Source: Levilactobacillus lindianensis
GTDB taxonomy: Bacteria > Bacillota > Bacilli > Lactobacillales > Lactobacillaceae
Length of the DNA stretch: 64,000 nt
Assembly (NCBI RefSeq): GCF_003946095.1
Contig: NZ_RHOD01000001.1
Span: 1-64,000 of the forward strand
Reading direction: 5' to 3'
Of the stretch, positions 14,581-61,494 are shown piece after piece. Each line of letters begins with the position of its first letter. Position 1 is the first letter of the stretch. A program made the position numbers and the translations under genes. Under the pieces are notes generated by a model. That model searched no databases and had not been told where the DNA came from. It saw nothing but the letters and a program-made list of their open reading frames with translations.

Positions 14581-14755
14581 CGCCTGCGGGCACCGGACGC
14601 CACCCCTGTGGGGCAGACCTGAAGCCTGAGGAACGGTCTTCAGGGCAACCTTGAACCTCGAAGCTCACGAGTTTCAAAGTTGGCCGTGCTCTAAGCCGAG
14701 ACAAAACCTCGGCTAAGACCACCGACACGGGGGTTCTGTCCGGTGCCCTCCGGCT
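14581..14755 (-). repeat. Family A multi-stem repeat, reversed copy (subtype A1)
   Basis: The outer arms GGGCACCGGAC and GTCCGGTGCCC enclose three hairpins: CCTGAAG/CTTCAGG, TTGAACCTCG/CGAGTTTCAA and CTAAGCCGAG/CTCGGCTAAG. The ends are CGCCTGCGG and CCTCCGGCT. It lies upstream of the gene at 13353-14450 and is paired head-to-head with the copy at 15633. Confidence 0.9.
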
Positions 14756-14894
14756 GAGGCTGAGCTAAATTCAAACTCAGAGCTTGACACTTCTAAAAGT
14801 GTGTCTTCCATATTCGTATCAATCCTCTTGCTTTAAAAATAAGGGCCGTCCTACTACTCTTAGCTTGATGTTGAACTTAACTTGATATAATATA

Positions 14895-15070
14895 AGTTTG
14901 TACACAGCAACTTGAAATGTACGAAAAAAGAAGCATCAGGAACGCAATCCTGATACTTCCAAGCTGTAACGACCTGCTTGCAACGGCCATACCGCCTAGC
15001 GACATCGAGTTACAGTTTAACAGTCTTAAACCATTAAACCGTTTCTAGCTGCCCGCTAAACGGTTTTTCT
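14895..15070 (+). ncRNA. Candidate antisense RNA converging on a small membrane peptide gene
   Basis: A promoter-like TTGATG, 15 bases, TATAAT (14860-14890) reads into a roughly 170-base unit containing the hairpin GCATCAGG/CCTGATAC. It ends at the terminator AAACCGTTT/AAACGGTTT plus TTTTT (15036-15070). The gene at 15072-15230 converges on the same terminator, the arrangement seen in txpA/ratA-like type I toxin-antitoxin loci. Confidence 0.45.
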
Positions 15071-15071
15071 T

Positions 15072-15230
15072 TTACACAAGCAATTTTAGAGCAATGACAA
15101 GAATCCCGAGAATTCCAATAATTCCCGCGAATACAACAGCTACCAGAATGATTGTCATCCCTTTTAGCTGTGATTGCTCCGACAGGCCGGATAGCCCTTT
15201 GAAGGCTGATCCAAGCCACTTCATTTTCAT
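15072..15230 (-). CDS. Small membrane peptide, possible type I toxin
   Basis: The frame encodes 52 residues from MKMKWLGSAFKGLSG, with an amphipathic start, a polar middle and a C-terminal membrane segment (MTIILVAVVFAGIIGILGI). The start is uncertain: GGGGAA lies 12 bases before this ATG, while the longest frame (67 codons from 15275) has no ribosome site. A convergent promoter and shared terminator at 15036-15070 suggest RNA control. I see no sequence match to a named toxin family. It could also be a bacteriocin-like or immunity peptide. Confidence 0.45.
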   Translation of the reverse strand: MKMKWLGSAFKGLSGLSEQSQLKGMTIILVAVVFAGIIGILGILVIALKLLV

Positions 15231-15448
15231 AAAGTTGCCGAATTCCCCAGTAATATGCGGAATTAGTGTCATCAAAAAACGTTTTGATCTAGCACCATCT
15301 CCATCTTTTTTAGACTTCGATGCCGCTAAGATATGACCAAGTCCCTACAACAGGATAAAGCCTACCACAGTTTGCTTTGGTTAGCTTAGAGCTTTTTTGC
15401 TGATTCTGATATTTTTTTCTAGCACTCAGTTCAATTTAGCTTGTTACT

Positions 15449-15521
15449 AAAATAGACCAAGTTCACAACAATCATGGAGCTTCATGCATCTCCAGGCCAT
15501 TGTGAGCTTGGTCTATTTTTT
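15449..15521. terminator. Long hairpin, bidirectional terminator or small palindromic element
   Basis: AAAATAGACCAAG and CTTGGTCTATTTT form the base; TCACAA/TTGTGA and TGGAG/CTCCA continue the stem. A- and T-runs at both bases would stop transcription from either side. No gene lies within 270 bp, so it may be a small element of its own. Confidence 0.6.
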
Positions 15522-15632
15522 ACGGCTTAATTCATCTTATTCAAAAACGCCGTTTCATCCAAATCTGATCATTTGCTTGAAGCAGCGTAACTAGTTAAAT
15601 CTCATCAATTTTCTAACGACGCGTTCAATCCT

Positions 15633-15767
15633 AGCCGGAGGAGGCCAGGGATGGAGCCACCGGGCGACTTTGAAGACACGTGCTCTTCGTGACTTCAAAT
15701 CGAGCGAGAAGCCCAAGGGGCTGAAGCGTCCCCACAGCAGGCGGAATCCCTGGCAACCGCAGGCGGC
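15633..15767 (+). repeat. Family A multi-stem repeat, forward copy (subtype A2, shortened)
   Basis: The ends AGCCGGAGG and CCGCAGGCGGC and the outer arms GCCAGGGAT/ATCCCTGGC are intact. One inner hairpin present in the A2 copies at 52414 and 61312 is missing, giving 135 bp. It lies just after the minus-strand gene 15792-16127. Confidence 0.9.
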
Positions 15768-15791
15768 TAATTTAAACTTGATCTTAAACCG

Positions 15792-16127
15792 TTAGTCATT
15801 AACCGGTGTCCCCGTATAGAACACCGAGCCAGAAGTCTTATGAACCCCAAACACCCGGGTACTGAATTTGGCGGTCCCAACAGTAGACTGGACGTGATAA
15901 TAGTCCCAGTCACTGTGAGCGGCATACTTCCGTCCCTCGGTATCCTTCAATTTGACCGGATAAATCAACAAGCTCTTTAAGGGCTGATCGTGCTGGGCAA
16001 TGCTCAAGCGAACCGCGTTACTTGGCGTATACGGGATAAACAAGCACGCCACCGCCACAATCAGAATTCCTAAGAGAATGACGGCTCGTCGCCGCATATT
16101 CCCTGACTTTTGCTGCGTTTGTTTCAT
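15792..16127 (-). CDS. Small membrane-anchored or secreted protein, paralogue a
   Basis: About 111 residues: a short basic start, one hydrophobic segment (RRAVILLGILIVAVACLFIPYTPSN) and an exposed domain of some 70 residues containing DWDYYHVQS. It is paralogous to its neighbour at 16146-16502, which shares xTPxNxVRxxI, a DWDYYxx or TWDYYRF core and a closing FYTGT or FYHGT. The family is unknown to me. GGAGG lies seven bases before the ATG. The two genes are 18 bp apart and probably co-transcribed. Confidence 0.65.
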   Translation of the reverse strand: MKQTQQKSGNMRRRAVILLGILIVAVACLFIPYTPSNAVRLSIAQHDQPLKSLLIYPVKLKDTEGRKYAAHSDWDYYHVQSTVGTAKFSTRVFGVHKTSGSVFYTGTPVND

Positions 16128-16145
16128 CACGATTCCTCCGTTCGT

Positions 16146-16502
16146 TTAAGCGCCGACGTCAAAGGTCAAAGTGCCGTGGTAAAAGAGGTGTCCCGCTGGC
16201 CGCCAAATCCCGACCTCATTGCTGTCATAGCCACCCGAATAAGACAGCACCTTGTGGTCAAAACGGTAATAATCCCATGTGCGTTTGCCAGAAGACGTGC
16301 GCGTATCGGTCCGTGACTCCTTGACGGTATGGCCTTGAAATGCCTGAAGTGGATGGCCATTACGTAAGATGGTGAAGCGGACCGTATTTCTGGGCGTCAC
16401 CGGTAGGAAGAACAACAACTCGGCCACAAGTAAAACCAGGATCCCGCCAAATAACCACCAGAGAAAATGGCGTCTATGTAAGTGTTCTGCCACGATGCTC
16501 AT
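16146..16502 (-). CDS. Small membrane-anchored or secreted protein, paralogue b
   Basis: About 118 residues from MSIVAEHLHRRHFLWW, with one membrane segment (LFGGILVLLVAELLFFLPV) then an exposed domain with TWDYYRF and FYHGT. It is a tandem paralogue of 15792-16127. The start is set at the ATG with AAGGG upstream rather than 12 codons earlier where no ribosome site exists. The gene is the first of the pair. The function is unknown; the arrangement next to two exported paralogues suggests a surface role. Confidence 0.65.
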   Translation of the reverse strand: MSIVAEHLHRRHFLWWLFGGILVLLVAELLFFLPVTPRNTVRFTILRNGHPLQAFQGHTVKESRTDTRTSSGKRTWDYYRFDHKVLSYSGGYDSNEVGIWRPAGHLFYHGTLTFDVGA

Positions 16503-16596
16503 CCCCCATCCCTTGTTGTTAGGCTTATCATACGCCATCTTGTGAGGGGGTGTTCTTATCGGCTATAAACTTATAAAATATCTAAACTAGTTTAGT

Positions 16597-16621
16597 AAAA
16601 AAACTGCGACCGTAGTCACAG
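16597..16621 (-). terminator. Terminator after family B copy B3
   Basis: On the minus strand CTGTGAC pairs with GTCGCAG around TACG, followed by TTTTTTT. Confidence 0.85.
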
Positions 16622-16639
16622 CTTTGGATTTCACATGGC

Positions 16640-16758
16640 CGAAACGTGTTCCCCAAGGCAGGGGATTCCGCTTAACCCCGCTAAGCCAATAATCCAAACC
16701 CGGGATTATTAACTTAGCGACGTTAATGCTCGTCCCCTAACCGCCTTGGCTCGCACTC
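16640..16758 (-). repeat. Family B structured repeat, copy B3
   Basis: Nearly the same sequence as B2 (both have CCAAGGC arms and ATAATCC tip). It begins 8 bp after the stop of 16767-17864 and ends before the terminator at 16597-16621, as for the paralogous gene with B2. Confidence 0.9.
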
Positions 16759-16766
16759 TGTTTTTC

Positions 16767-17864
16767 CTACCACCAATTCCGGTCCCCAACGAACAACTCA
16801 GGATGGTGATTGGTCAGGAGATATGGGGTGCCGTCCTTGGTGAACGTCAGGCCCTCAAACTCCAGCTTGGGTGAGAACTCAGTCCATTTGAACTGCTTAT
16901 TCTTCAGACTGCCCTTGCCCACCAGCGACTTGGCCGGGAAGCTCGCGATGGAGTCGTCCGCAACCAGATATAGCCGCCGATTGTGCGGGTTGTACGCCAT
17001 GCTCTGCAGGCGCGTCCCCGGATTTTGCTTCAGGAGCTGGTTGGTCATGCGGAAGTGAACCTTCTTCCGCGAAATGGTCCCCTTGTAGATCAGCGCGGTA
17101 TGCACGGTTGGCTTGGTCCAGAAGAAGGCATTGCCGTAGCGGTCAAACGTCAGCACGTGGCCACCGGGCTTGGAAACGTGCCCCGACTTGAGTTTGAAAC
17201 GAATCTTATGAATCGGCGCCAGTGACTTCCCACTAATCTGGGCGATATAGCCATATTGATTCATGGGTACGCGCGGCGCAGACTCCTTGTCGATCCACAT
17301 GTAGAGGCGTTTGTGCTTCCAGTCATAGGCCAACGACTGCCCGTGACCGGTGGTAAATGCCGGGCCAACTTTAACGGCCTTGCGAATCGCCAGTTCCCGT
17401 TCGTTGGTTTGCGTATATGCCGTTTGAACCTCGATCGGCGTCGCACCCATCTTATCTAATTTCTGCTTATCATAACGGACGACACGTCCGCGATTCTTCC
17501 AGCTGGTCGGACAGTAAATCACGTAGAAATACCGGCCATCAGTGGTCAGACTCTGCGGATTGCCCCAAGCCTGATTCTTGTATCCCGGATACGGCAAGAG
17601 GTACTTCGTCTTGAAATTCATCTTGGCACCCTTGATTCGCCGAATCTGATTGGGACTATGTAAGTTACCATGAACGTAGGTTTTCGGCATTTTCACGTAG
17701 TGTACGGCGTGGTCATCGACCTTCCGCAACTTCCCCACCGTGAGTGCCGGCGCAGTCTGGTGGTAAACCTTGACCGCGGCCTGCGCGGAAACGTCAATGC
17801 CCGCGCTAATCCCCAGGACGATCCCCAATACTAACAGAACCAGTCCCAAGTGTTTCTTCTTCAA
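16767..17864 (-). CDS. Secreted protein of unknown function, paralogue 2
   Basis: An exported protein of about 365 residues with a hydrophobic signal (KKKHLGLVLLVLGIVLGISAG, cut near VSAQAA). It shares most of its length with 13353-14450. The best start is a TTG at 17864 with GGGGGAAG about ten bases upstream; an ATG seven codons earlier overlaps that ribosome site. Differences from paralogue 1 are concentrated near the N terminus. The function is unknown. It could be a cell-wall associated beta-propeller. Confidence 0.75.
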   Translation of the reverse strand: MKKKHLGLVLLVLGIVLGISAGIDVSAQAAVKVYHQTAPALTVGKLRKVDDHAVHYVKMPKTYVHGNLHSPNQIRRIKGAKMNFKTKYLLPYPGYKNQAWGNPQSLTTDGRYFYVIYCPTSWKNRGRVVRYDKQKLDKMGATPIEVQTAYTQTNERELAIRKAVKVGPAFTTGHGQSLAYDWKHKRLYMWIDKESAPRVPMNQYGYIAQISGKSLAPIHKIRFKLKSGHVSKPGGHVLTFDRYGNAFFWTKPTVHTALIYKGTISRKKVHFRMTNQLLKQNPGTRLQSMAYNPHNRRLYLVADDSIASFPAKSLVGKGSLKNKQFKWTEFSPKLEFEGLTFTKDGTPYLLTNHHPELFVGDRNWW

Positions 17865-18010
17865 AATGATGATCGCTTCCCCCATAAATAAACTAATAAC
17901 CGAACTAAATTATATCGCAAACTTTAGGCATAAACAACGCGCCAGAACTCCCACGAATGGGTGATCTGACGCGTCCTGGTTTGTGATTTTTTAATGCAGA
18001 CTGATGGTGT

Positions 18011-18166
18011 GGCGGCCTTCCGGGTGGCCCTGAGGAGGCTGGAACGCCATGGGCACGTCGGGAAGCCAAAGAGCGGTCTCCTCGAGCGGCCTTATTGTAA
18101 GTTGGCCAAGAACGCCAACCAACAATAACGACATGGCTGAGCCTCCTCAGAACCACCCTCCAGGCT
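18011..18166 (-). repeat. Family A multi-stem repeat, reversed copy (subtype A4)
   Basis: Outer arms CTGAGGAGGC and GCCTCCTCAG; inner hairpins include TTATTGTAAGTTGGC/GCCAACCAACAATAA. Near its start is GGTCTCC with GGGAAGCCAAAGAGC, matching the A4 copies at 25271 and 34531. It is upstream of the gene 16767-17864. Confidence 0.88.
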
Positions 18167-18335
18167 GATCGCCGGGCAACGGTGGTTTTGAAAACCTACC
18201 TGAACACTCAGACAATAAGTGCTCCAATTAGACACGTCCACTCGATAAGGAACCTTATCAATCGAACGCGATCCTTGTCGCCCTATCGTAATCGTCAGTA
18301 GCCAGCACCACTATCTAAGTTCAGTGGTCGATCTC

Positions 18336-18498
18336 AGCTGCAGGGTGGTTCCGTAGGGGGCTCAGTGGTGTCGTTTGCCTTAGTGGCGTGGTTTTCGCCG
18401 CTTAGGCAAAGGCCGAGCTTGTAGACTTTCGCCTTTTGAAAGGCTTCAAGTCGTGCCCACTACGTTCCAGCCCCCTACGGAACCGCCCGGAGGCGCGG
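18336..18498 (+). repeat. Family A multi-stem repeat, forward copy (subtype A3)
   Basis: Outer arms GGTTCCGTAGGGGGCT and AGCCCCCTACGGAACC; inner hairpins TTTGCCTTAG/CTTAGGCAAA and CTTGTAGACTTTC/GAAAGGCTTCAAG. It differs from the copy at 21546 at only three positions by eye. It lies just after luxS and may act as its terminator, since no other was seen. Confidence 0.9.
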
Positions 18499-18535
18499 TC
18501 ATTATCTATTAACGAGCCTACCGGCTCTAATAAAT

Positions 18536-19009
18536 CTAGATAACCTCGCGGGTAAATGGATCCTTAGAAATCCCCTTGTCGAGAATGTCCTTGCACCATT
18601 CCTTGGCGGAGAACAGACTGTGGTCCTTGTAGTTCCCACAGCTGTATTTGTCGGTCCCTTGAACATCCTTCCACTCCGTGTCAAAGGCAATCTTGTGAAG
18701 AGAAGCCTTCAAAGCCTTAGCAACTTCTTCGGTAGATTGTTCACCCCAAGTGATCAGGTGGAAACCGGTCCGACAGCCGAATGGTGAACAGTCGATGACG
18801 CCGTCCATCTCGTCACGGAGATAGCCCGCCAACAAGTGTTCAATCGTATGTAAGCCAGCCGTTGGAATCGCATTGGTATTCGGTTGGACTAACCGTAAAT
18901 CAAAATTGGAAATGACGTCACCCTTGGTCCCCGTTTCCCGGGTAATCAAACGAACGTATGGTGCCTTAACAGCGGTGTGATCTAACGTAAAACTTTCAAC
19001 TTTTGCCAT
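18536..19009 (-). CDS. luxS: S-ribosylhomocysteine lyase LuxS
   Basis: This cytoplasmic metalloenzyme splits S-ribosylhomocysteine into homocysteine and DPD, the precursor of autoinducer-2, in the activated methyl cycle. All 157 residues are present. The metal ligands H54 and H58 lie in HTIEH, with the third in the KYSCGNY segment near residue 125, and [11 protein letters not shown] carries the catalytic Cys. The start follows AAAGGAG. It stands alone, with no pfs or metK beside it. No terminator is visible in the short gap before the family A repeat. Confidence 0.97.
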
Positions 19010-19213
19010 TATTTGCCAACTCCTTTTGAGATTGTGGGTACTCCTTTACTGTACACCCCTAACGGCCACCCTGGCTAATAATTTGGACGGGTAAATGACG
19101 TGGTCTCCTGACCATTTGGTTAGTCCGAATTTGATCAAAACTGGGCACGTCACCATCCCCTTATCGTGGTCCTCGCTATACTGGGGGCAAATTGACGAAA
19201 GGGGGCCTTTGCC

Positions 19214-20203: not shown

Positions 20204-20220
20204 CCAAAAACTAGACAAAT

Positions 20221-20256
20221 GGACCGCCAGAACAAATCGTCCGGCGGTCCATTTTA
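20221..20256. terminator. Terminator between convergent genes
   Basis: GGACCGCC and GGCGGTCC pair around a 14-base loop, followed by ATTTTAAG. It serves the LCP gene and possibly the facing gene. Confidence 0.8.
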
Positions 20257-20279
20257 AGTTGTTTTAATTTTTCAATAGT

Positions 20280-21023: not shown

Positions 21024-21112
21024 CCGGAGGAGTCCCTTCAATCTCAAATATATTAACAGTATAGCATGGATCTCCTCTTTTGCTGAATCGTCTTCTAAAA
21101 CGGGTGAGATAT

Positions 21113-21388: not shown

Positions 21389-21545
21389 CTGATTATAGCA
21401 CAGAGCACGGTATTTTTGTATTTCTTTAAACTGAAATTCAATACCTCGCGTATGATCACCCAATCTTGATTAATCAATTAATAAGAAAGCTTCGTGAAAC
21501 TGTCCTATGGATTAGTTCACCTCGACTAGCTAATCCGCCGATCTC

Positions 21546-21708
21546 AGCCGCAGGGTGGTTCCGTAGGGGGCTCAGTGGTGTCGTTTGCCTTAGTGGCGTG
21601 GTTTTGGCCGCTTAGGCAAAGGCCGAGCTTGTAGACTTTCGCCCTTTGAAAGGCTTCAAGTCGTGCCCACTACGTTCCAGCCCCCTACGGAACCGCCCGG
21701 AGGCGCGG
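21546..21708 (+). repeat. Family A multi-stem repeat, forward copy (subtype A3)
   Basis: Nearly identical to 18336-18498 (three differences), with arms GGTTCCGTAGGGGGCT/AGCCCCCTACGGAACC. It is one of three forward copies not preceded by a reversed partner. It follows the terminator of the gene at 21773-22603. Confidence 0.9.
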
Positions 21709-25270: not shown

Positions 25271-25426
25271 CCGCGCCTTCCGGGCGGTGTCTGGGAGGCT
25301 GGAACGCGGTGGGCACGTTGGGAAGCCAAAGAGCGGTCTCCCCCAGCGGCCTGATTGTAAGGCGGCCAAAGACGCCACCTAACAATCACGACACGGCTGA
25401 GCCTCCCAGCCACCACCCTCCAGGCT
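25271..25426 (-). repeat. Family A multi-stem repeat, reversed copy (subtype A4)
   Basis: Outer arms CTGGGAGGC/GCCTCCCAG; internal hairpin TTGTAAGGCGGC with GCCACCTAACAA. It sits upstream of the trxA promoter and is paired head-to-head with 25696-25875. Confidence 0.88.
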
Positions 25427-25695: not shown

Positions 25696-25875
25696 AGCCG
25701 GAGGGGCCAGGGTCGGAGCCCTGTGTCGGGGCTGTTGGGTCGGCGATCCTGCCGGCCTTACAGCCCGGGACGTCGCTAAGACCCACGCTTTTGTGGGGCT
25801 TAGTGCGAGTCCGAAGACCGCCCTTTGGCTTCGGGCGTGCCCCACAGGACGTAGACCCTGGCCACCGCAGGCGGC
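25696..25875 (+). repeat. Family A multi-stem repeat, forward copy (subtype A5)
   Basis: Ends AGCCGGAGG and CCGCAGGCGGC; outer arms GGCCAGGGTC/GACCCTGGCC. Three inner hairpins: GGTCGGCG/GCCGGCC, GCTAAGACCCACG/GTGGGGCTTAG and CCGAAG/CTTCGG. It follows the nox terminator. Confidence 0.92.
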
Positions 25876-33354: not shown

Positions 33355-33395
33355 GAAACGTGCCAGCCAGGACAGTTGGTTCCGACTCTTTGAAT
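33355..33395 (-). repeat. Family B remnant
   Basis: GAAACGTGCCAGCCAGGACAG is joined directly to GGTTCCGACTCTTTGAATTTA: the two ends of a family B copy without the middle. It is the last of three tandem copies after the SDR gene. Confidence 0.6.
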
Positions 33396-33404
33396 TTACC
33401 TGGC

Positions 33405-33510
33405 CGAAACGTGCCAGCCAGGGCAGCCGACTCCGCTTAACCCCGTAAAGAAAATCATCCAGGTTCGGGATGATTCTCTTTACGACGTTAATGCTCGCTT
33501 GGGTTGGCTC
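33405..33510 (-). repeat. Family B structured repeat, copy B4
   Basis: Sense minus. The loop strands are intact; the inner stem is GTAAAGA/TCTTTAC and the tip AATCATCC/GGATGATT. The outer stem is partly degraded. It is in tandem with B5. Confidence 0.85.
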
Positions 33511-33526
33511 TTTGATTTTACACAGT

Positions 33527-33645
33527 CGAAACGTGTGGTTAAAGGCAGCTGGTTGCGCTTAACCCCGTTAGGAAACTAATCCAAAACCAGGATTAATTCC
33601 CTAACGACGTTAATGCTCGCCAGCTAACCGCCTTTAACCGCACTC
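33527..33645 (-). repeat. Family B structured repeat, copy B5
   Basis: Sense minus. Outer arms GGTTAAAGGC/GCCTTTAACC, inner stem GTTAGG/CCTAAC, tip TAATCC/GGATTA, both loop strands intact. It begins 6 bp after the SDR stop codon at 33651. Confidence 0.9.
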
Positions 33646-33650
33646 TTTTA

Positions 33651-34530: not shown

Positions 34531-34692
34531 GCGCGATGGGTCTTCCGGGTGGTGCCTGAGAGGGCTGGAACGCCATGGGCGCGGTGGGAAGCCAAAGAGC
34601 GGTCTCCCCACCCGGCCTTATTGTAAGCTGACCAAAAACGTCAGCCAACAATAACGACACGGCTGAGCCCTCTCAGGCACCACCCTCCAGAC
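34531..34692 (-). repeat. Family A multi-stem repeat, reversed copy (subtype A4)
   Basis: Outer arms GGTGCCTGAGAGGGCT/AGCCCTCTCAGGCACC, internal hairpin TTATTGTAAGCTGAC/GTCAGCCAACAATAA. It is upstream of the SDR gene; its forward partner is beyond the aldehyde dehydrogenase gene. Confidence 0.88.
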
Positions 34693-34789
34693 CTTTTTCC
34701 TCAACGGGACACGTTCTGCTTCACTCTTAAGTAGTCGAGCAACAACAAACTACAATTAGTTACTAGCTACATAACAACGACCGATTCAT

Positions 34790-36600: not shown

Positions 36601-36765
36601 GGCCGGAGGACAGTTCCAGACGAGCTCAGTCGTGCCGTTTGCCTTAGCGGAGTGGTTTTTCTCCGGTTAGGCAAAGACCGTGCTTGAAGACTTTCGCTTC
36701 TCAGAAAGGCTTCAAGTCGCGTCCACAACGTTCCAGCCCGTCTGGAACTGTCCGGAGGCATGGCC
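36601..36765 (+). repeat. Family A multi-stem repeat, forward copy (subtype A3)
   Basis: Arms GACAGTTCCAGACG/CGTCTGGAACTGTC replace those of the other A3 copies, while the inner hairpins (TTTGCCTTAG/TTAGGCAAA, CTTGAAGACTTTC/GAAAGGCTTCAAG) are kept: a clear case of stem change with pairing preserved. It follows the tetR terminator. Confidence 0.92.
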
Positions 36766-40203: not shown

Positions 40204-40375
40204 ACCTGCGGTCACGAGACGCCACCCTGTGAGGCAGACCTGAAGCCTGAGAAGCAGGCTTCAGGGCAACCTTGAACCTCGAAAAACACGAGTTTCAAAG
40301 TCGGCCGTGGTCTAAGTCGAGAAACTACCTCGACTAAGACCACCGACACGGGGTTCTGTCTCGTGACCTCCGGTT
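40204..40375 (-). repeat. Family A multi-stem repeat, reversed copy (subtype A1)
   Basis: Arms GGTCACGAGAC/GTCTCGTGACC; hairpins CCTGAAG/CTTCAGG, TTGAACCTCG/CGAGTTTCAA, CTAAGTCGAG/CTCGACTAAG (a compensated C/T to G/A change from other A1 copies). Its forward A5 partner begins 43 bp later. Confidence 0.93.
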
Positions 40376-40418: not shown

Positions 40419-40597
40419 AGCCGGAGGTGATCAGTGGGCCGTCCTGTGTCGGTGGTGTTAGGCCGGCGTTCTTCCGGTCTTACAGCAGGGGCCGCCTTTA
40501 AGACCCGCGCCCCTTGTGGGGCTTAAAGACGAGTCCGAAGACCGCTTCCTGGCTTCGGGCGTGCCTCATAGGACGGCCCGCTGATCACCGCAGACGG
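40419..40597 (+). repeat. Family A multi-stem repeat, forward copy (subtype A5)
   Basis: Arms GGTGATCAG/CTGATCACC extended by GGGCCGTCC/GGACGGCCC. Inner hairpins as in 25696. It ends about 24 bp before the ribosome site of the SDR gene at 40634, so it would lie in that gene's leader RNA. It also extends that gene's frame in the 5' direction by chance. Confidence 0.93.
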
Positions 40598-44946: not shown

Positions 44947-45055
44947 GAAATTCTCAGGTAATCCTTAATTGAAATCAAGGACTAAAGCGACCTTTCCCCG
45001 GTATACTGGGTCCATAGATGATATCTGAGTGGTTCTGGTTAACCACCTAGCTTCA

Positions 45056-45226
45056 CCGCCTGCGTCAACCAGACGCCACCCGGTGAGGCAGACCTGAAGC
45101 CAAAGTTCGGTCTTCAGGGCAACCTTGAACCTCAAAAGACGAGTTTCAAAGTTGGCCGTGCTCTAAGCCGAGAAAAAACCTCGGCTAAGACCACCGACAC
45201 GGGGTTCTGTCTGGTTGCTTCCGGCT
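45056..45226 (-). repeat. Family A multi-stem repeat, reversed copy (subtype A1)
   Basis: Arms GTCAACCAGAC/GTCTGGTTGC; three A1 hairpins. It lies after the kinase gene. Between it and its forward partner there is a hairpin CACAACATAATA/TATTATGTTGTG (45242-45276). Confidence 0.92.
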
Positions 45227-45287
45227 AGGACTGGTTGAACACACAACATAATATCAAATATCACCTATTATGTTGTGAATGTAATTC

Positions 45288-45379
45288 AGCCTCGGTTGGA
45301 CAGGAGCAGAGTCCCGTGTCGACGGCGTTAGGTCGGTGATTTGCCGGCCTTACAGCGTGGCGTTCCTGACCAACCGAGA
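45288..45379 (+). repeat. Family A repeat, truncated forward copy (subtype A5)
   Basis: 92 bp. It keeps the arms GGTTGGACAGGA/TCCTGACCAACC and one hairpin (GGTCGG...CCGGCC) but has lost the other two, by internal deletion. It ends 40 bp before the next gene and lies in its leader. Confidence 0.85.
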
Positions 45380-45422
45380 CAACCAATCTCGGATGTCATA
45401 ATTTGAAAGGAAGCGTGAGATT

Positions 45423-45755: not shown

Positions 45756-45787
45756 AGCCCCCAAGCTGCTTGACTTGGGGCTTTTTT
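45756..45787 (+). terminator. Terminator of the 81-aa gene
   Basis: AGCCCCCAAG and CTTGGGGCT pair around CTGCTTGA, then TTTTTT. Confidence 0.9.
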
Positions 45788-45794
45788 GTCGCAA

Positions 45795-45913
45795 GAGTGC
45801 GCCATCAGGCGGTTAGTCGGCGAGCATTAACGTCGATTACGGAAAAATCCCGGGCTTGGATTATTCCGTAATCGGGGTTAAGCGGAGCCGACTGCCTGAT
45901 GGCGCACGTTTCG
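45795..45913 (+). repeat. Family B structured repeat, copy B6
   Basis: Sense +. Outer arms GTGCGCCATCAGGC/GCCTGATGGCGCAC (with a bulged T), GTCGGC/GCCGAC, inner stem GATTACGGA/TCCGTAATC, tip AATCC...GGATT. Here it sits after, not before, the terminator of its gene, between two convergent units. Confidence 0.9.
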
Positions 45914-45931
45914 GCTAGGTGGCCACCCACG

Positions 45932-48447: not shown

Positions 48448-48629
48448 GGCCGCCGGTGGTTAGGGGTGTCAGCCTGTGAGGCACGGTCGAAGCCTAAGAA
48501 GCGGTCTTCGACCTCGAATTCAAGCCCCACAAGGGACGTGGGTCTTGAATTCGTCCCCTGCTGTAGAGCCGGAAGCCCACCGGTCCAACACCACCGACAC
48601 TGGCTGACACCCCTAACCCCCTCTGGCCC
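48448..48629 (-). repeat. Family A multi-stem repeat, reversed copy (subtype A5)
   Basis: The arms GGTTAGGGGTGTCAGCC/GGCTGACACCCCTAACC pair without a mismatch over 17 bases and share nothing with other A5 arms. The ends are altered (GGCCGCCGG and CTCTGGCC). Inner hairpins as in A5. Confidence 0.92.
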
Positions 48630-48830
48630 AGACTGATATTGTCAGCAACGAACCCAATCTCCACAAGCCAACTATCATGCCTTACCAATCCCTAATTATC
48701 AATCACCAGTCAAACTGGAATAACCATTTTATCTCCGAATAATCCGATCAGCTCACAGAACTTGACTATATTACGTCTAATCTACCCACATCAATAAAAT
48801 TATGGTCTTACTATCACTCCAGCCGGAGGC

Positions 48831-48995
48831 ACCTAGACAGAACCCCCGTGTCGGTGGTCTAAGCCGAGGTTTTGTCTCGGCTTAGAGCACGGCCAACTTT
48901 GAAACTCGTGGGCTTCGAGGTTCAAGGTTGCCCTGAAGACCGCCCTTCGGCTTCAGGTCTGCCTCATGGGGGTTTTGTCTAGGTGCCGCAGGCGA
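48831..48995 (+). repeat. Family A multi-stem repeat, forward copy (subtype A1)
   Basis: Arms GCACCTAGACAGAACCCCC/GGGGGTTTTGTCTAGGTGC (19 pairs, one wobble), then CTAAGCCGAG/CTCGGCTTAG, TTGAAACTCG/CGAGGTTCAA and CCTGAAG/CTTCAGG. It follows the pox terminator. Confidence 0.94.
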
Positions 48996-49014
48996 CCGCA
49001 TTGAACGCAAGACC

Positions 49015-51066: not shown

Positions 51067-51085
51067 GTTTTTGAATTTAGATTGT

Positions 51086-51204
51086 CGAAACGTGTTCTAA
51101 CAGGCAGCCGGCTCCGCTTAACCCCGTCCAGAAAATCATCCAGGTTCGGGATGATTCTCTGGACGACGTTAATGCTCGTCGGCTGAACGCCTGTTAGAAC
51201 ACTC
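51086..51204 (-). repeat. Family B structured repeat, copy B8
   Basis: Sense minus. Outer arms GTTCTAACAGGC/GCCTGTTAGAAC, GCCGGC/GTCGGC, inner GTCCAGA/TCTGGAC, tip AATCATCC/GGATGATT. All stems differ from B1-B3, while the loop strands are identical. It starts 7 bp after the corA stop and precedes its terminator. Confidence 0.92.
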
Positions 51205-51210
51205 TTTTCC

Positions 51211-52128
51211 CTACCAAAAATGCCGATGCTTCAGCATCAAGGCCACCCAGGCCATGACGCCGACCATGATCGCCACGGTAATCAGCCACGAAATCCCTTG
51301 ATTAGCAAATGGCAGCTTAACGTTCATCCCGTAGAATCCGGTCACAATGGTGGGAATCGTCAAAACCAATGACCAAATGGTTAAGAACTTCATCGTGTCG
51401 TTCAGGTTATTATTCAGCACATTGTTAAACGTCTTGGAAATTCGGTCGACAACATCCGCCTCGATCGCCGTCATTTCAGAGGTTTGGCGGGCTTCAATGA
51501 CCGCATCTGTCAGGCGCTCGTTGTTGGTGTCCGACAGTTGCTTCCCAAAGGCGGTATTGTTGAGGTTGACCACCATCATGGCGTTGTTGCGCGTGGCACT
51601 AACGAAGTACGCCAGACTCTGTTGCAGGTTAGATAACGCGATCAAATCCTTGTTGTCCGGTGACTGATTAAGCTGCCGGTCCAAGCGATTCTGCTCTGCA
51701 TTAATCTTGCGAATGGGTGGAATAAACTGGTCAAACAAAATGAACAGCCCAACCAGGACGAACTCATTGGTATCCATAATCTGTTCCAACTTTAGTCGTT
51801 CGCTCAACGTTTGGTTCACCCATTGAGTATTCTTGGTTGTAATAGAAAAAACGCGATGACCCTTCAGTAAAAACGTCACGGGTCGTGTGATGTAGCGTTG
51901 CGACACCTGGTCCACGACAACCGGCACGTGGAACACGAAGAGTTGCGTGTTCAGATACTCATCACGGTCATAGTGAGACCGTTCATTTTCATCGGTAACG
52001 TAGGTTAGGATTTCATCGGTCAGGCCATAATTAACCTGTAAATTCTCCCGATCGGCATCGTCCTCAACCATGGCCATTACCCAGACCAGGTCTTGTTCCC
52101 CCGTCCCAATCTTTCTTTCAACAATCAT
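51211..52128 (-). CDS. corA: CorA-family magnesium/divalent cation channel
   Basis: A 305-residue protein: a long cytoplasmic alpha/beta and helical domain, then two C-terminal spans. The signature YGMN between the spans (TGFYGMNVKLP) is the channel mouth motif. The start MIVERKIGTGEQD is behind AAGGAG; 29 further codons are open upstream but have no ribosome site. It is probably a Mg2+ uptake channel, though some family members move Co2+ or Zn2+. Monocistronic, with repeat B8 in its 3' region. Confidence 0.92.
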   Translation of the reverse strand: MIVERKIGTGEQDLVWVMAMVEDDADRENLQVNYGLTDEILTYVTDENERSHYDRDEYLNTQLFVFHVPVVVDQVSQRYITRPVTFLLKGHRVFSITTKNTQWVNQTLSERLKLEQIMDTNEFVLVGLFILFDQFIPPIRKINAEQNRLDRQLNQSPDNKDLIALSNLQQSLAYFVSATRNNAMMVVNLNNTAFGKQLSDTNNERLTDAVIEARQTSEMTAIEADVVDRISKTFNNVLNNNLNDTMKFLTIWSLVLTIPTIVTGFYGMNVKLPFANQGISWLITVAIMVGVMAWVALMLKHRHFW

Positions 52129-52413: not shown

Positions 52414-52594
52414 AGCCGGAGGAGGCCAGGGATGGAGCCAGCCGTGGCGGTGCAGTTAGACCGAGTGTACTTCTCGGCCTTACTGCACGGGCGACTCTGA
52501 AGACACGTGACTTTCGTGGCTTCAAATCGAGCGAGAAGCCCAAGGGGCTGAAACGTCCCCACAGCAGGCGGAATCCCTGGCAGCCGCAGGCGGC
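52414..52594 (+). repeat. Family A multi-stem repeat, forward copy (subtype A2)
   Basis: Arms GCCAGGGAT/ATCCCTGGC; hairpins GTTAGACCGAG/CTCGGCCTTAC, CTGAAGACACG/CGTGGCTTCA and AGCCC/GGGCT. It lies after the pnuC terminator, with no reversed partner to its left in the same gap. Confidence 0.92.
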
Positions 52595-54440: not shown

Positions 54441-54451
54441 CCGCTAAAACA

Positions 54452-56089: not shown

Positions 56090-56314
56090 GAATTTCTTCC
56101 TTCCAATACTCAATTAATGCAACCGCTTGTCGCTTCTAACCATCAGTCTTGCATTCGCTTTCATTGTACCAATAATTATCCGGGTTGTGGCTGTTTTTTG
56201 CAAGTTTTATGCCTAACCCTACAAAATAAATATCTGGGTCAAATAACTCGCTCCTTTATTGTTTCATTAATAAATGACCTGGTTCTTAACCTGCTATTAT
56301 CCTTCAAGTTCATT

Positions 56315-56494
56315 CCGCCTGCGGTGGACAAGGAAGCCGTCCTATGGGGACCGGGCGAAGCCAAAGAGCGGTCTTCACCCTCGCTTTAAGCCCCACAAGG
56401 AACGTGGGTCTTAAAGGCGTCCCGTGGTGTAAAGGCGGAAGACCACCACCTTAACACCACCGACACAGGACGTCTCCCTTGCCCACCTCCGGCT
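56315..56494 (-). repeat. Family A multi-stem repeat, reversed copy (subtype A5)
   Basis: Arms GGTGGACAAGGAAGC/GTCTCCCTTGCCCACC with three mismatches, so this copy is slightly decayed. Inner hairpins as A5. It lies upstream of the GH13 gene. Confidence 0.9.
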
Positions 56495-56558
56495 CCATTT
56501 GAATTGAGAGTGAGTCAAGACACACTCACGATATTCAACCAATTGTCTTCCTACATTT

Positions 56559-56611
56559 AAAAAAGAATAGCCTGACTAGACTCATCTTACGCGAGACTAA
56601 TCAGGCTACTT
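56559..56611 (-). terminator. Terminator between a family A pair
   Basis: On the minus strand GTAGCCTGATTAGTCTC and GAGTCTAGTCAGGCTAT pair, then TCTTTTTT. It probably ends the oxidase gene at 56903, so the forward family A copy is inside that transcript. Confidence 0.8.
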
Positions 56612-56694
56612 CTTCTAATATTAAATTTCAAAGACTACCAATACCAACGAATTCGTCCTCGCTATAGCACAAAGACCAATCGCCTTGTTGCCTC

Positions 56695-56871
56695 AGCCGG
56701 AGGGAACCAGACGATACCCCCGTGTCGGTGGTCTTAGCCGAGGTTTTCTCTCGGCTTAGACCACGGCCAACTTTGAAACTCGTGCTTTTCGAGGTTCAAG
56801 GTTGCCCTGAAGACCGCTTCTCAGGCTTCAGGTCTGCCCCATGGGCGGTATCGTCTGGTTCCCGTAGGCGG
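56695..56871 (+). repeat. Family A multi-stem repeat, forward copy (subtype A1)
   Basis: Arms GGGAACCAGACGATACC/GGTATCGTCTGGTTCCC, perfectly paired and unlike the other A1 arms; three A1 hairpins. It lies between the oxidase stop codon and its terminator. Confidence 0.94.
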
Positions 56872-56902
56872 ACCCCTTGAAATTAAGAAACTTTCGAAAG
56901 AA

Positions 56903-58297: not shown

Positions 58298-58459
58298 TTG
58301 TAGGACCTCTTTCTGTGTTTTGGAATCAAGGTCATCATAGCACCACTTCAAATAGAATACCTTATTGATTTCTCGGCAAACTTGATCTATACGGAAAAAG
58401 CGGTTCCATTATGATGAAATGCGCTATAATTGAGGTATCGAATTAGGAGGTATTTAGTT

Positions 58460-58951
58460 ATGCGTCGAAAAAATCTACAGGTTACCGATTTAATCAAGGT
58501 CAAGGCATTCTTACGGACGGGTCACGTCATCAACACCGCTATGCACGATGGTGACTATCCTTACGTGGTGCCGACGAACTATGGTTTCCAATTTGATGAA
58601 GACGGCCTACTCCACCTCTACCTTCACGGGGCACCCGAAGGCAAGAAGCGTGATTTAATCGCCAAAGATGGTCACGTCGCCTTCTCCATTGTGGCCAAGG
58701 CCGAACGTTACGACACCCCTGATGGAGAATTGTCGAACAACGGGTACGCCTACCAGAGCATCATGGGAACTGGGAATGCCAGCCTGGTCACTGACTTGAA
58801 AGAAAAGCGCGAAGCCTTAGAACTGATTCTAGACCACGAACTGGGTAGCCGCGACGAGTCCTTAAAGCCTGCCGACGTCGAATATACCGGGGTTATCCGG
58901 ATCGACGTGACTGGCATGACTGCCAAGGAAGCAACTAAAGACAAAAACTAA
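58460..58951 (+). CDS. Pyridoxamine 5'-phosphate oxidase-like flavin protein
   Basis: A 163-residue split-barrel protein of the NimA/PNPOx-like group. RTGHVINTAMHDGDYPYVVPTNYGF, LYLHGAPEGKKRDLI and YQSIMGTGNASLVTDLKEKREAL match the flavin (or heme) binding barrel with a conserved His in the HG segment. It diverges from the oxidase, with about 160 bp between starts. AGGAGG lies nine bases before the ATG and a TATAAT box about 30 bases upstream. A role in flavin-linked detoxification, such as nitroimidazole reduction, is possible but unproven. Confidence 0.82.
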   Translation: MRRKNLQVTDLIKVKAFLRTGHVINTAMHDGDYPYVVPTNYGFQFDEDGLLHLYLHGAPEGKKRDLIAKDGHVAFSIVAKAERYDTPDGELSNNGYAYQSIMGTGNASLVTDLKEKREALELILDHELGSRDESLKPADVEYTGVIRIDVTGMTAKEATKDKN

Positions 58952-58954
58952 TCA

Positions 58955-58987
58955 CAAAAATCTGGGCTAGCCCCCAGATTTTTTTAG
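58955..58987 (+). terminator. Terminator of the flavin protein gene
   Basis: AAATCTGGG and CCCAGATTT pair around CTAGCC, then a T-run. Confidence 0.9.
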
Positions 58988-58998
58988 ACGAACTTTTT

Positions 58999-59012
58999 GT
59001 TGCAAATGCAAC
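58999..59012. promoter_or_regulatory. MarR operator overlapping the promoter
   Basis: GTTGCAAATGCAAC has perfect six-base arms around AA. It covers the -35 box of TTGCAA-17-TATACT (59000-59028), which drives the operon below; a MarR dimer here would block polymerase. Confidence 0.7.
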
Positions 59013-59028
59013 TTAACCGTTTTATACT
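59000..59028 (+). promoter_or_regulatory. Promoter of the MarR-GNAT-B3/4 operon
   Basis: TTGCAA, 17 bases, TATACT. Confidence 0.75.
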
Positions 59029-59071
59029 ATTCCTACATGTTCAGTCTAAAATGACTAAAGGAAGTGAGTAC

Positions 59072-59524
59072 TTGCCAGACATTCTAAGGTCCATTGGCAT
59101 CATCGATCGCGCGTTGGACACCATCGCCAATATCGAGTTCAAGGAAGTCAACCTCACCCGTGGCCAATACCTTTACTTGGTCCGCGTCTACGAGCATCCG
59201 GGCATCATCTTGGAGCGCCTGGCCAATCTCATCAAGGTCGACAAGACCACGGCGGCTCGCGCTATTCAAAAGATGGAGAAAAATGGCCTTCTAGAACGCA
59301 AGATGAACCCCGCCGACAAGAAACAAAAGCAGATTTACGTCACCGAGAAGGGCCGCCAGGTTTACCCCCTCATTCACCGGGAGAACCTGTACTCTAACGA
59401 GGTTGCCCTGACTGGAATCTCACCTGATGATCAGGTAAAGCTACACGATCTGCTAGACCAGGTTGCGAAAAATATCGAAGACGACTACAACACCGTCAAA
59501 CGCGGTGAGAAGCGTCAGTATTAA
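59072..59524 (+). CDS. MarR-family regulator, first gene of a three-gene operon
   Basis: About 150 residues, with the winged helix LVRVYEHPGIILERLANLIKVDKTTAARAIQKMEKNGLLERKMNPADKKQKQIYVTEKG. The start is best placed at the TTG of LPDILRSIG, behind AAAGGAAGTG; the longer frame has an ATG seven codons upstream, but that overlaps the ribosome site. The operator at 58999-59012 indicates self-repression. GNAT and B3/4 genes follow within 12 and 20 bp, so the unit is a ligand-inducible operon. Confidence 0.88.
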   Translation: MPDILRSIGIIDRALDTIANIEFKEVNLTRGQYLYLVRVYEHPGIILERLANLIKVDKTTAARAIQKMEKNGLLERKMNPADKKQKQIYVTEKGRQVYPLIHRENLYSNEVALTGISPDDQVKLHDLLDQVAKNIEDDYNTVKRGEKRQY

Positions 59525-59535
59525 GAGGTTCACTC

Positions 59536-60030
59536 ATGATTAAACCAACTTTCACCGCTGTGGCTACCGACCAACTAGCTGAATTACGACGTCTCAGCAT
59601 CGACACCTTTACAGATACCTTTGGGGCCCAGAACACCTCAGCCGACCTCCAAGCTTACCTGACTAAAGCCTTCAATCCTAGCCAGTTAGCTAGCGAGTTT
59701 GCTGACGTTAACAGTCAGTTCTACTTTATCCAGGTTGCGAATACGGTTCGCGGCTATCTCAAACTAGTCAGCCACGCGGACGATTTGGAAATTCAGCGAC
59801 TCTATCTCACCTCTGCGGGCCAACACCAAGGCTATGGCGTCGCGGCCATTGCCTTTGCGACCCGTCGCGCCCAGTTGGCTGCCAAATCCGAGCTACGTCT
59901 CGGCGTCTGGGAGCACAATTTAACGGCTATCGATTTTTACCGCTCTCAGGGCTTCCAGCAAACCGGCAGTCATCCCTTTCAGTTGGGTTCCGCCACACAA
60001 ACCGATCTCATCATGACCAAAAAAATATAA
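59536..60030 (+). CDS. GNAT acetyltransferase
   Basis: A 164-residue acetyltransferase. The acetyl-CoA motif is LYLTSAGQHQGYGVAAIAFA (Q-x-x-G-x-G-like, with GQHQGYG), followed by LGVWEHNLTAIDFYRSQGFQQTG, which is the standard GNAT C-terminal motif. AAGAGG precedes the ATG. It is the middle gene of the MarR operon and may detoxify or modify a small molecule that the MarR protein senses, possibly an amino acid or amine. Confidence 0.87.
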   Translation: MIKPTFTAVATDQLAELRRLSIDTFTDTFGAQNTSADLQAYLTKAFNPSQLASEFADVNSQFYFIQVANTVRGYLKLVSHADDLEIQRLYLTSAGQHQGYGVAAIAFATRRAQLAAKSELRLGVWEHNLTAIDFYRSQGFQQTGSHPFQLGSATQTDLIMTKKI

Positions 60031-60049
60031 AATTTGGAGATGTTCATTT

Positions 60050-60766
60050 ATGAAACAAGCCATCATCGATCTTTCGTTCTGGGAACTGTTCCCCCAAGGT
60101 CAAATCAGTATTTTAACCCTCAAAGACATCGACAACCACGTCAACGAAGCCGACGACCCTTACTTCCAAGAACTCCTTAACGACGGCGCCAATGAATCTG
60201 AAAAGTTCATTACCGACGAGACCTTTAGAGAAAATGCCGTGATCGCCGAATGGCGGGAGGCCTTACGGAAGTTCAAGACGAAGAAGGGCGCCCGTTCTTC
60301 AATCGAAGCCCTCCTCAAGCGGATTAGCCAAGGCAAGCACCTCAGCCCCATCAATCCCCTGGTCGACATCTACAACAGTATTTCACTGAAATATGCCTCA
60401 CCTTGTGGCGGAGAAAATATCGATGCCATCGCCGGCGACCTTCACCTAGGCCTCGCTCAAGGTGGCGAAGGTTTCCGTCCCTTAGGTGACACCGAAGACT
60501 CTCCTGCTTTGCCAGGCGAAATGATCTACTATGACAACGATGGCGCCATCTGCCGAAGCCTCAACTGGCGTGAAGCGCAACGGACCATGTTGACGGAAGA
60601 CACGACGAATGCCGTGCTGGTTATTGAAGCTATCAACGCCGACCAGGCAGAACGGGCTAGCGAAGCCATTCAGGAGCTGAAGAGCCTTTGCGAACACTAC
60701 TTCAAGGTTACGGGGACAACCACCCTCTTAACCGCCGACCATGCTTCCACTACTTTGGTGGACTAA
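60050..60766 (+). CDS. B3/B4 domain protein (tRNA-synthetase editing-like)
   Basis: A 238-residue protein with the B3/B4 domain, the editing fold of phenylalanyl-tRNA synthetase beta chains. Visible pieces are SSIEALLKRISQGKHLSPINPLVDIYNSISLKYASPCGGENIDAI and GEMIYYDNDGAICRSLNWREAQRTMLTEDT. Stand-alone versions are widespread and may clear mischarged tRNA or misprimed amino acids. TTTGGAGATG precedes the ATG. It is the last gene of the operon with MarR and GNAT, an arrangement pointing to handling of unusual amino acids. Confidence 0.88.
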   Translation: MKQAIIDLSFWELFPQGQISILTLKDIDNHVNEADDPYFQELLNDGANESEKFITDETFRENAVIAEWREALRKFKTKKGARSSIEALLKRISQGKHLSPINPLVDIYNSISLKYASPCGGENIDAIAGDLHLGLAQGGEGFRPLGDTEDSPALPGEMIYYDNDGAICRSLNWREAQRTMLTEDTTNAVLVIEAINADQAERASEAIQELKSLCEHYFKVTGTTTLLTADHASTTLVD

Positions 60767-60795
60767 CTTTTCTCTAGACTGCATGTGTGAAATGA

Positions 60796-60983
60796 CCGCC
60801 TGCGGCTGTCAGGGATTCCGCCTGCTGTGGGGAACGCCTTCAGCCTAAAATCCAGGCTTCCGGCTCGCATTGAAGCCCCGCTAAAGACGCGGGTCTCCAA
60901 TGTCGTCCCAGTCTGTAAGGCCGAGAAAAACACTCGACCTTACAGACTCGTCACGGCTGGCTCCATCCCTGACCTCCTCCGGT
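60796..60983 (-). repeat. Family A multi-stem repeat, reversed copy (subtype A2)
   Basis: Arms TGTCAGGGAT/ATCCCTGACC. Inner hairpins include TTGAAGCCCCGC/GCGGGTCTCCAA and TGTAAGGCCGAG/CTCGACCTTACA. It lies between the stop of 60050-60766 and the terminator at 61093. Confidence 0.9.
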
Positions 60984-61092
60984 TACTGTTGTTCTTTTAA
61001 TGAACGATAGTGCCACTTAGTGGTCAATTAGTATTAGCACTTTGATTATATTCAATCACTAGCAACTCGTTCCTTATGTTATCTACGAAATC

Positions 61093-61146
61093 AAAATCAC
61101 CACAGATTCTGCCATTGTCGACGGAACCTGTGGTGATTTTTTATTT
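61093..61146 (+). terminator. Terminator of the MarR-GNAT-B3/4 operon
   Basis: AAAATCACCACAG and CTGTGGTGATTTT pair, followed by TT. The reversed family A copy is inside the transcript. Confidence 0.8.
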
Positions 61147-61311
61147 GTATCTGTTAAGTTTTGAGAACACTGAATCGCATAGTGATAACTACTGACAAGA
61201 ACCTCAGGCAAGATGAACCCACCAGACAAATTTGATTGGCGACCATCGGTTACGCGGCCTAAGAAGCAACTTGCAACAATTTTTTACTAAGTCGTGGTAA
61301 CGGTCAATCTT

Positions 61312-61494
61312 AGCCGGAGGAGGCCAGGGATGGAGCCAGCCGTGGCGGTGGCGTTAGACCGAGCGCTTTTCTCGGCCTTACACCACGGGCGATCTTTAAG
61401 ACCCGCGTTCCTGGCGGGGCTTAAAGTCGAGCGAGAAGTCCACCGGGCTGAAGCGTCCCCACAGCAGGCGGAATCCCTGGCAGCCGCAGGCGGC
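61312..61494 (+). repeat. Family A multi-stem repeat, forward copy (subtype A2)
   Basis: Arms GCCAGGGAT/ATCCCTGGC; hairpins GTTAGACCGAG/CTCGGCCTTAC and CTTTAAGACCCGC/GCGGGGCTTAAAG. The second hairpin differs at many bases from the A2 copy at 52414 yet pairs perfectly. It follows the ABC ATPase gene. Confidence 0.93.

Follow-up and report, generated by a model that had tools for sequence, protein, structure and literature searches.

What keeps the arms of a repeat complementary if the arms themselves differ from copy to copy? This question is raised by the first 64,000 nucleotides of contig NZ_RHOD01000001.1 of Levilactobacillus lindianensis (assembly GCF_003946095.1, forward strand; the window in the following), in which a preliminary description made from the sequence alone had noted 21 copies of a multi-stem intergenic repeat. 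We describe this repeat as the structured interior of small non-autonomous transposons, with a selected sense-strand fold that most likely acts as RNA, a reading which we regard as fairly probable when taken as a whole.

The repeat unit and its fold

The covariance model R1 covers the 122-nt core of the repeat, consisting of three inner hairpins and the stem enclosing two of them but excluding the outer stem, and was trained on 16 copies, four of them from outside the window. At E ≤ 1 it has 22 matches in the window, of which 20 are copies with E-values from 3.4e-32 to 2.1e-5 (Table 1) and two are weak antisense echoes (E ~0.02). The multi-copy repeat is real and the named copies and arms lie where they had been placed, with 20 copies and two antisense echoes taking the place of 21. 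The covariance-model search that had been proposed yields 76 copies in the own genome (G000) at E ≤ 0.01.

A unit is about 155-190 nt long and folds into a basal stem, hairpin 1 (HP1) and then a stem P2 enclosing hairpins 2 and 3 (HP2, HP3). As described before, GCC/GGC and GG/CC pairs join the constant ends AGCCGGAGG and CCGCAGGCGGC on both sides of non-canonical G-A and A-G positions, which form a 3x3 internal loop in the foot (GGA/GCA, in some copies GCA/GGA or GGA/GGA). Further fixed non-canonical positions are a T.T in HP1, an A.G in HP2 and a bulged A in HP3; counted in up to 110 aligned copies with one Watson-Crick pair on each side, HP1 holds 94 isolated T.T mismatches and HP2 95 isolated G.A/A.G. 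Three inner hairpins are the rule, where two to three had been reported, and fewer are found in the truncated copies at 15633 (without hairpin 1) and 45287 (without hairpins 2-3). The outer stems are complementary within each copy, but to call them unrelated was an overstatement, since a series is visible within one subgroup (GCACCGGACAGAACC, GCACCTAGACAGAACC, TCACGAGACAGAACC, GCAACCAGACAGAACC, GAACCAGACGATACC). Two subtypes differ in their feet, GCCGGAGG/CCGCAGGC vs GCCGAGAG/CGGTAAGGC; these subtypes had been overlooked, as had the head-to-head pairing, the transposon context and the conservation of the fold on one strand.

Neighbouring units stand head to head. Among neighbours less than 1 kb apart in the own genome (matches to E 0.01), 24 of 25 are arranged minus-then-plus with their 5' feet facing, and the same holds for 13 of the 14 neighbours within 700 bp among the matches listed for genome G030. 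The 68 clusters in 77 named loci comprise 38 of the type "-+", one "-+-+", one "--" and 28 with a single match. The two members of a pair frequently differ in subtype; among the matches listed for G030, 10 of 14 pairs combine a long with a short core.

Covariation and the folding strand

For covariation, 110 R1 matches from the 77 loci (109 distinct sequences) were fitted to the model. Both-sided changes occur in 42 of 43 pairs and 89.7% of the cells pair, so covariation over many copies is overwhelming. The covariation score is 0.552 vs 0.167 (standard deviation 0.005) after shuffling and at most 0.104 with slid partners; kinship inflates such scores, the slid control retains this kinship, and the margin is large. 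The 16 sequences aligned without structure score 0.299, vs 0.145 shuffled and at most 0.125 slid.

The strand was assessed by mismatches with two flanking Watson-Crick pairs on each side, with G.T and A.C given equal scores. In the outer stem and the three hairpins, isolated G.T number 144 vs 56 A.C, and G.A 135 vs one C.T. Since these ratios would reverse on the other strand, the sense strand is the folding strand. Divided by part, the excess of G.T over A.C is most marked in hairpin 2 (36:4) and less so in hairpin 1 (29:15), hairpin 3 (8:1) and the outer stem (71:36), where the asymmetry rests on the restricted count because without the isolation requirement it is nearly even (G.T 152 vs A.C 133). 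As a control, 287 terminator-like hairpins in the 77 loci contain 31 isolated G.T and 17 A.C per 1000 Watson-Crick pairs, a similar G.T rate, and therefore the low G.T content of the units is no argument for DNA. The fold of one strand is selected.

Units as the interior of non-autonomous transposons

In two Levilactobacillus genomes, G014 and G022, the pair sits inside elements of ~600 bp that have 14-16-bp terminal inverted repeats (CTAAAGGTTGAAAG) and 7-9-bp target duplications but no transposase gene, with the units about 75-85 bp from the ends. G014 contains 17 copies with both ends exact, 14 of them with an exact 7-9-bp duplication, and in its full copies of about 615 bp a type-1 unit on the minus strand is followed by a spacer and a type-2 unit on the plus strand. 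The second family, in G022, is about 597 bp long and comprises nine full-length copies and several variants; its ends vary somewhat, and an exact 7-8-bp target duplication is present in 6 of 15 copies examined. With up to two mismatches, the end motif CTAAAGGTTGAAAG has 41 matches in the 77 loci, 19 of which, in nine loci, lie within 1.2 kb of a unit. Lengthened by two bases, it is present in 15 of the 34 genus genomes, with 69 occurrences in G014, and the reversed control pattern has no matches in these 34. Moreover, a 335-bp single-unit insertion in Companilactobacillus, compared with the empty site, starts with CTAAAGGTTGAAAG and shows a 9-bp duplication with one mismatch.

The same 14-bp ends bound a 1559-bp insertion sequence (IS) of G014, L214, which has an 8-bp duplication and encodes a 450-aa transposase, IS4-type by NCBIfam (470 bits, cut-off 250) and DDE by Pfam; a structured unit was not seen in this one IS copy examined. 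Terminal inverted repeats, target duplication, the lack of an own transposase and a partner IS with the same ends are the marks of miniature inverted-repeat transposable elements (MITEs). The elements are non-autonomous transposons, as their anatomy in two genomes and empty sites elsewhere demonstrate. The contrast that had been drawn with ordinary transposon copies is to be corrected in so far as the copies are transposon-borne, at least in these two genomes. From the shared ends we infer that the IS4-type transposase moves the elements in trans. The only match to this transposase in the own genome (G000:C9:10232-11566) is 85% identical to L214 and has one in-frame stop, and the transposase has plasmid-borne relatives. 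A plasmid or phage origin of the elements was considered and dropped: blastn gave no match for the L179 element in plasmid or phage collections, and the plasmid search was also negative for one pair each from L080 and the window, although diverged units could escape such searches.

Variation of the stems

For orthologous copies, 39 of 104 candidate comparisons were used, with a unit identity of 80-98.5%; three have short or doubtful flanks and many share species. Compared with random expectations that treat related comparisons as independent, there are fewer broken pairs (64 vs 117), A.C (35 vs 88) and G.T (71 vs 110), and compensated double changes number 14 vs 6 expected by chance. Altogether, 170 changed pairs were left as G.T, A.C or broken.

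The copies of the two mobile families were chosen by exact or near-exact ends and are thus the recently active ones. In 15 copies of G014, stems deviate from the majority by 2.3%, loops by 7.2%, the spacer by 10.8% and the outer flank by 8.2%. Singleton to shared variants are 40:11 in stems vs 70:77 in spacer and flank (p = 1.4e-4), and 17:25 in loops. The singleton stem variants give A.C in 16 cases, G.T in 13, Watson-Crick pairs in 3 and others in 8; the shared ones give G.T in 7, A.C in 2, Watson-Crick pairs in 2 and others in none. The nine full copies of G022 differ by 2.1% in stems vs 10.4% in spacers, or 5.3% vs 13.1% if a variant subgroup of four copies with a different middle is included (13 in total). 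Within the mobile families, stems are hence 2.5 to 5 times less variable than spacers. That the fold matters for spread is supported in the G014 family and only suggested in the G022 family.

The copy-specific stems arise by one-sided and compensatory substitution over time, not by rewriting of arms. We also dropped the notion of a new stem being acquired with every insertion, as recent G014 copies largely share their stems. Of the two explanations originally put forward for the complementary arms, selection on structure is borne out by the covariation, the constraint between orthologues and the low stem variation in mobile families, whereas cruciform repair is disfavoured by the unrestored pairs, which far outnumber the compensated ones, and by fixed mismatches that persist across several genera although rewriting would erase them.

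Old copies, empty sites and rearrangements

The window copies are older insertions, the ends of which are worn or undetectable in most pairs. At the pair P6 (pair labels as in Table 1), the target CATAAATT (8 bp, compared with empty sites) is duplicated imperfectly and a 12-15-bp inverted repeat lies outside the pair. The site is empty in L071, L072, L074 and L132, empty sites in other species are clean, and the truncated right unit is whole in L070 (L070:15514-15632). P6 stands between promoter-like and ribosome-binding-site-like sequences, and P5 appears to be placed likewise. L. huananensis (L069) is collinear with the window over 21.8 kb and has no R1 match there. It carries scars at P5 and P6 and also at P9 right, where one foot is joined to the other. 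Because of this, and since the genomes G012 and G024 have no match, lineages can lose units. Comparison of the window with L. humaensis shows that the two P9 units have swapped cores with arms and spacer orientation kept, as two nested inversions would produce. Compared with L070, a bidirectional terminator-like hairpin at 61080-61150 has its loop inverted, and the units on either side of it have swapped cores.

The genera g38 (L276-L281) and g12 (L282-L285) contain recent single-unit copies that have 165-251 bp in common, with no CTAAAGG-type ends noticed. Two genomes of g38 share a 165-bp unit at 97.6% identity, beyond which nothing matches at E ≤ 1e-5, and several copies in genome G130 have about 233-252 bp in common. 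Judged by the g38 and g12 copies, different families of elements seem to carry one and the same structured unit.

What the fold may do

It is most likely that the fold acts as RNA. In read-through transcripts it could form a stable block that binds protein or resists polymerase or ribonuclease, which would make intergenic insertions tolerable and thereby let the element spread. The outward orientation of the units probably serves to bring the last unit before the exit into folding orientation whichever way the element is read. Exchange between the two units of a pair can also swap cores. DDE transposition is not known to require a hairpin. RNA is preferred for this reason, and because purine-purine pairs abound in the strand-specific fold, copies apparently lie in transcribed leaders (P5, P6), and the outward pairing leaves a sense unit last on either strand. 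For two specific roles no convincing signal was found. An intrinsic terminator lacks the T-run directly after the 3' arm (in 137 flanks, TTTTT occurs in 0 to 3 per 10-bp step over the first four steps past the core), and a promoter-driven small RNA lacks a convincing promoter signal, TATAAT showing only a slight excess in one 10-bp bin upstream (19 vs about 10 in others).

Several observations weigh against the reading of the units as the selected RNA interior of transposons. Among 28 units or pairs outside the G014 and G022 families examined, terminal repeats are clear only at P6 in L070, and relatives of the IS were found in fewer genus genomes (13 of 34) than the fold. The P9 units flank a terminator that L069 has as well, which is not simply explained by a single pair insertion. 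In a flank comparison of 465 pairs among 31 own-genome units (12 from the window, 19 from other loci), 37 unit pairs are at least 85% identical over 100 nt, of which none share the outer and two the inner flank. Since similar units thus have unrelated flanks, the units are either homogenised or moved independently of the remaining element. Moreover, the contrast between singleton and shared variants is not significant in the nine G022 copies (23:9 vs 54:44, p = 0.10) and vanishes in all 13 (41:38 vs 78:64, p = 0.68), the orthologue expectations assume independence, and the unrestricted count in the outer stem is nearly even. Finally, with no convincing promoter upstream and no 3' T-run in the 137 flanks, a dedicated RNA is unsupported. 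The unit outlasts or outruns its surroundings, probably via unit-to-unit conversion or smaller mobile forms. A more far-reaching claim, which we put forward tentatively, as a possibility, would be that transposons here carry a structured nucleic acid of a new class, RNA most likely. Its conserved fold of four helices would serve several unrelated non-autonomous elements, spread over at least 12 genera, as a module and would be needed in cis for a copy to have descendants.

The next choice after RNA, in our view a doubtful one, is that the fold acts as single-stranded DNA or as an extruded cruciform recognised by a protein, as is the case for REP hairpins and integron attC sites. The resemblance of the inverted pairs to REPINs, the L069 scar joining the two feet at P9 right, the lack of a convincing promoter upstream and the position of units inside as well as outside transcription units (by eye) would agree with it. 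However, genes for REP transposases (PF01797) do not track the copies, as G020 has at least 100 matches and no PF01797 whereas G012 has no match and five matches to PF01797. In addition, the linked transposase is a DDE enzyme, which is not known to need a hairpin, and it is one sense strand that is conserved.

Host-level regulatory RNA, with domesticated units acting on neighbouring genes, is an improbable explanation. The constraint on orthologues in place and the apparent position of P5 and P6 between promoter and ribosome-binding site speak for it, and transcripts of MITEs act as leaders, insulators or decay barriers in other bacteria, according to the available part of a MITE review (PMC10969869). 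Nevertheless, no consistent gene or gene orientation was seen around the window pairs (by eye), L. huananensis shows no R1 match in its 21.8 kb and bears scars at P5, P6 and P9 right, and 2 of 35 genus genomes are without a match. That there is no selection, and template switching or gene conversion within palindromes keeps the arms complementary, is highly improbable: template switching can generate compensatory changes (PMC8794818, in the part available), and the P9 core exchange with the inverted terminator loop as inverted-repeat recombination, the homogenised units with unrelated flanks and the excess of double changes would fit, but 170 changed pairs stayed unrestored vs 14 compensated, rewriting would account neither for the survival of the conserved mismatches nor for the excess of G.T over A.C, and stems change less than spacers and not merely in step with them.

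Relation to known systems

That no named family fits has held up. Rfam 15 has no match at the gathering threshold in the window, and permissive scans gave only sub-threshold matches to units; a signal recognition particle RNA in L230 scores above threshold but lies beside its unit. In the literature, searched in an open library only, we found no description of this repeat family. REPINs and BIMEs are inverted hairpin pairs around a variable spacer with many intergenic copies, built from REP sequences of 20-40 nt. The repeat shares with them the inverted pairs around a spacer, the copy number and the intergenic position, but its units have four helices and about 155-190 nt and no link to REP (Y1) transposases. 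REP sequences with their RAYT transposases were therefore rejected, since PF01797 Y1 transposases do not correspond to the copies and the units are not 20-40-nt palindromes. With IS4-family insertion sequences the elements have the 14-bp ends of L214 in common; unlike these, the repeat-bearing elements are without transposase, and no unit was seen in L214.

Like the bacterial MITEs QMITE2 of Coxiella, Correia/NEMIS, RUP and BOX, as far as the available part of PMC10969869 describes them, the elements are small, non-coding, intergenic and folding, with terminal inverted repeats, 7-9-bp duplications and a partner IS in trans. They differ from the MITEs described there in that two multi-helix units stand head to head, certain non-canonical pairs are fixed, covariation is strand-specific and extends over many genera, and the units outlast the terminal repeats in old copies. 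GOLLD and ROOL, examples of large ornate RNAs of bacteria, are likewise structured, partly from Lactobacillales and without assigned function (PMC12286853, in the part available), but the repeat has no Rfam match, many copies per genome and is transposon-borne. The element is hence built like a MITE and laid out like a REPIN, but fails the REP test and has no Rfam counterpart.

MITE interiors are usually regarded as filler. Here, such an interior is kept by selection, with base-by-base covariation across a bacterial family, and outlasts the ends in old copies. This raises the testable question why a gene-less element needs an elaborate single-strand fold, and the copies supply natural mutational data on an undescribed one. 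It also calls for caution, as strong covariation in repeats can mirror selfish rather than host function.

Distribution across genomes

Matches are present in 33 of 35 Levilactobacillus genomes, with none in G012 and G024; 21 of the 33 have at least 96-102 matches each (at most 102 candidates were scored). In Lactobacillaceae, with stricter filters and nine candidates scored per genome, at least 96 of 397 genomes and 12 of 40 genera have matches. An order-wide sample gave 10 of 295 genomes and 5 of 74 genera, and all ten genomes belong to Lactobacillaceae. Named loci with matches come from Levilactobacillus, Lactiplantibacillus, Companilactobacillus and Furfurilactobacillus. With an identity of 99.94% to L. 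paucivorans over 21.8 kb, the window is placed within or next to this species. G030 has at least 145 copies (best 150 of 907 candidates), and all 145 listed are on contig 1 of 5.

Units and neighbouring features in the window

Table 1. Repeat units and associated features in the window.
Feature	Position	Strand	Remarks
Unit type 1 (A1a)	14581..14755	-	left partner of 15633; R1 14608-14728, E 1.4e-31; folds basal stem, HP1, P2, HP2, HP3
Unit type 1 (A2), hairpin 1 deleted	15633..15767	+	right partner, 877 bp from 14581 unit; R1 E 2.1e-5; alignment
Unit short type, GGA/GGA foot on minus strand	18015..18165	-	R1 18049-18134, E 1e-11; inverted repeat I14
Unit short type	18334..18498	+	partner of 18015; R1 18368-18460, E 7.6e-12
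luxS (Pfam)	18536-19009		adjoins unit 18334..18498
Unit short type, single	21544..21708	+	R1 21578-21670, E 2.3e-10
Unit short type	25275..25425	-	paired with 25696; R1 25309-25394, E 6.6e-12
Unit type 1 (A1b)	25696..25875	+	paired with 25275; R1 25723-25845, E 3.6e-26
Unit short type	34539..34693	-	faces 36601 over aldehyde dehydrogenase gene (NCBIfam); R1 34575-34660, E 1.7e-12
Unit short type, GGA/GGA foot	36601..36762	+	R1 36632-36726, E 6.1e-9
Unit type 1 (A1a), P5 left	40205..40374	-	R1 40229-40349, E 4.1e-31; P5 absent from L069 and outgroups
Unit type 1 (A1b), P5 right	40419..40597	+	44-bp spacer; R1 40446-40569, E 2.7e-26
Outer inverted repeat left of P6, ATGATATCTGAGTGG	45018..45032	+	probable transposon-end remnant; partner clear in L070, worn in window
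Unit type 1 (A1a), P6 left	45057..45226	-	R1 45083-45200, E 1.1e-30; empty site in four outgroups
Unit P6 right, hairpins 2-3 deleted, approximate ends	45287..45380	+	R1 45316-45370, E 2e-5
Unit type 1 (A1b), P7 left	48448..48628	-	R1 48476-48600, E 1.1e-24
Unit type 1 (A1a), P7 right	48821..48996	+	R1 48848-48967, E 2.4e-31
Unit type 1 (A2), single	52414..52594	+	R1 52444-52562, E 3.6e-18
Unit type 1 (A1b), P8 left	56314..56494	-	R1 56344-56466, E 2.9e-27
Unit type 1 (A1a), P8 right	56695..56870	+	R1 56722-56842, E 3.4e-32
Unit type 1 (A2), P9 left	60795..60985	-	R1 60827-60954, E 5.2e-21; core swapped with that of P9 right compared with L. humaensis
Unit type 1 (A2), P9 right	61312..61494	+	R1 61342-61462, E 4.7e-19

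Repeated stretches of ~1 kb at 13232-14207 and 16622-17615 adjoin the units at 14581 and 18015 and overlap open reading frames of 365 and 372 aa without a Pfam match. Long rod-like hairpins (GTCGAAACGTG ... CACTCTTTT) make up a second family, which is found at 33386-33649 (two), 45777-45921 and 51070-51225, and possibly at 6373-6513. Its inner CTTAACCCCGT/ACGTTAATGCTCG part is conserved and its outer stems are copy-specific; a relative lies in L132 near coordinate 2100.

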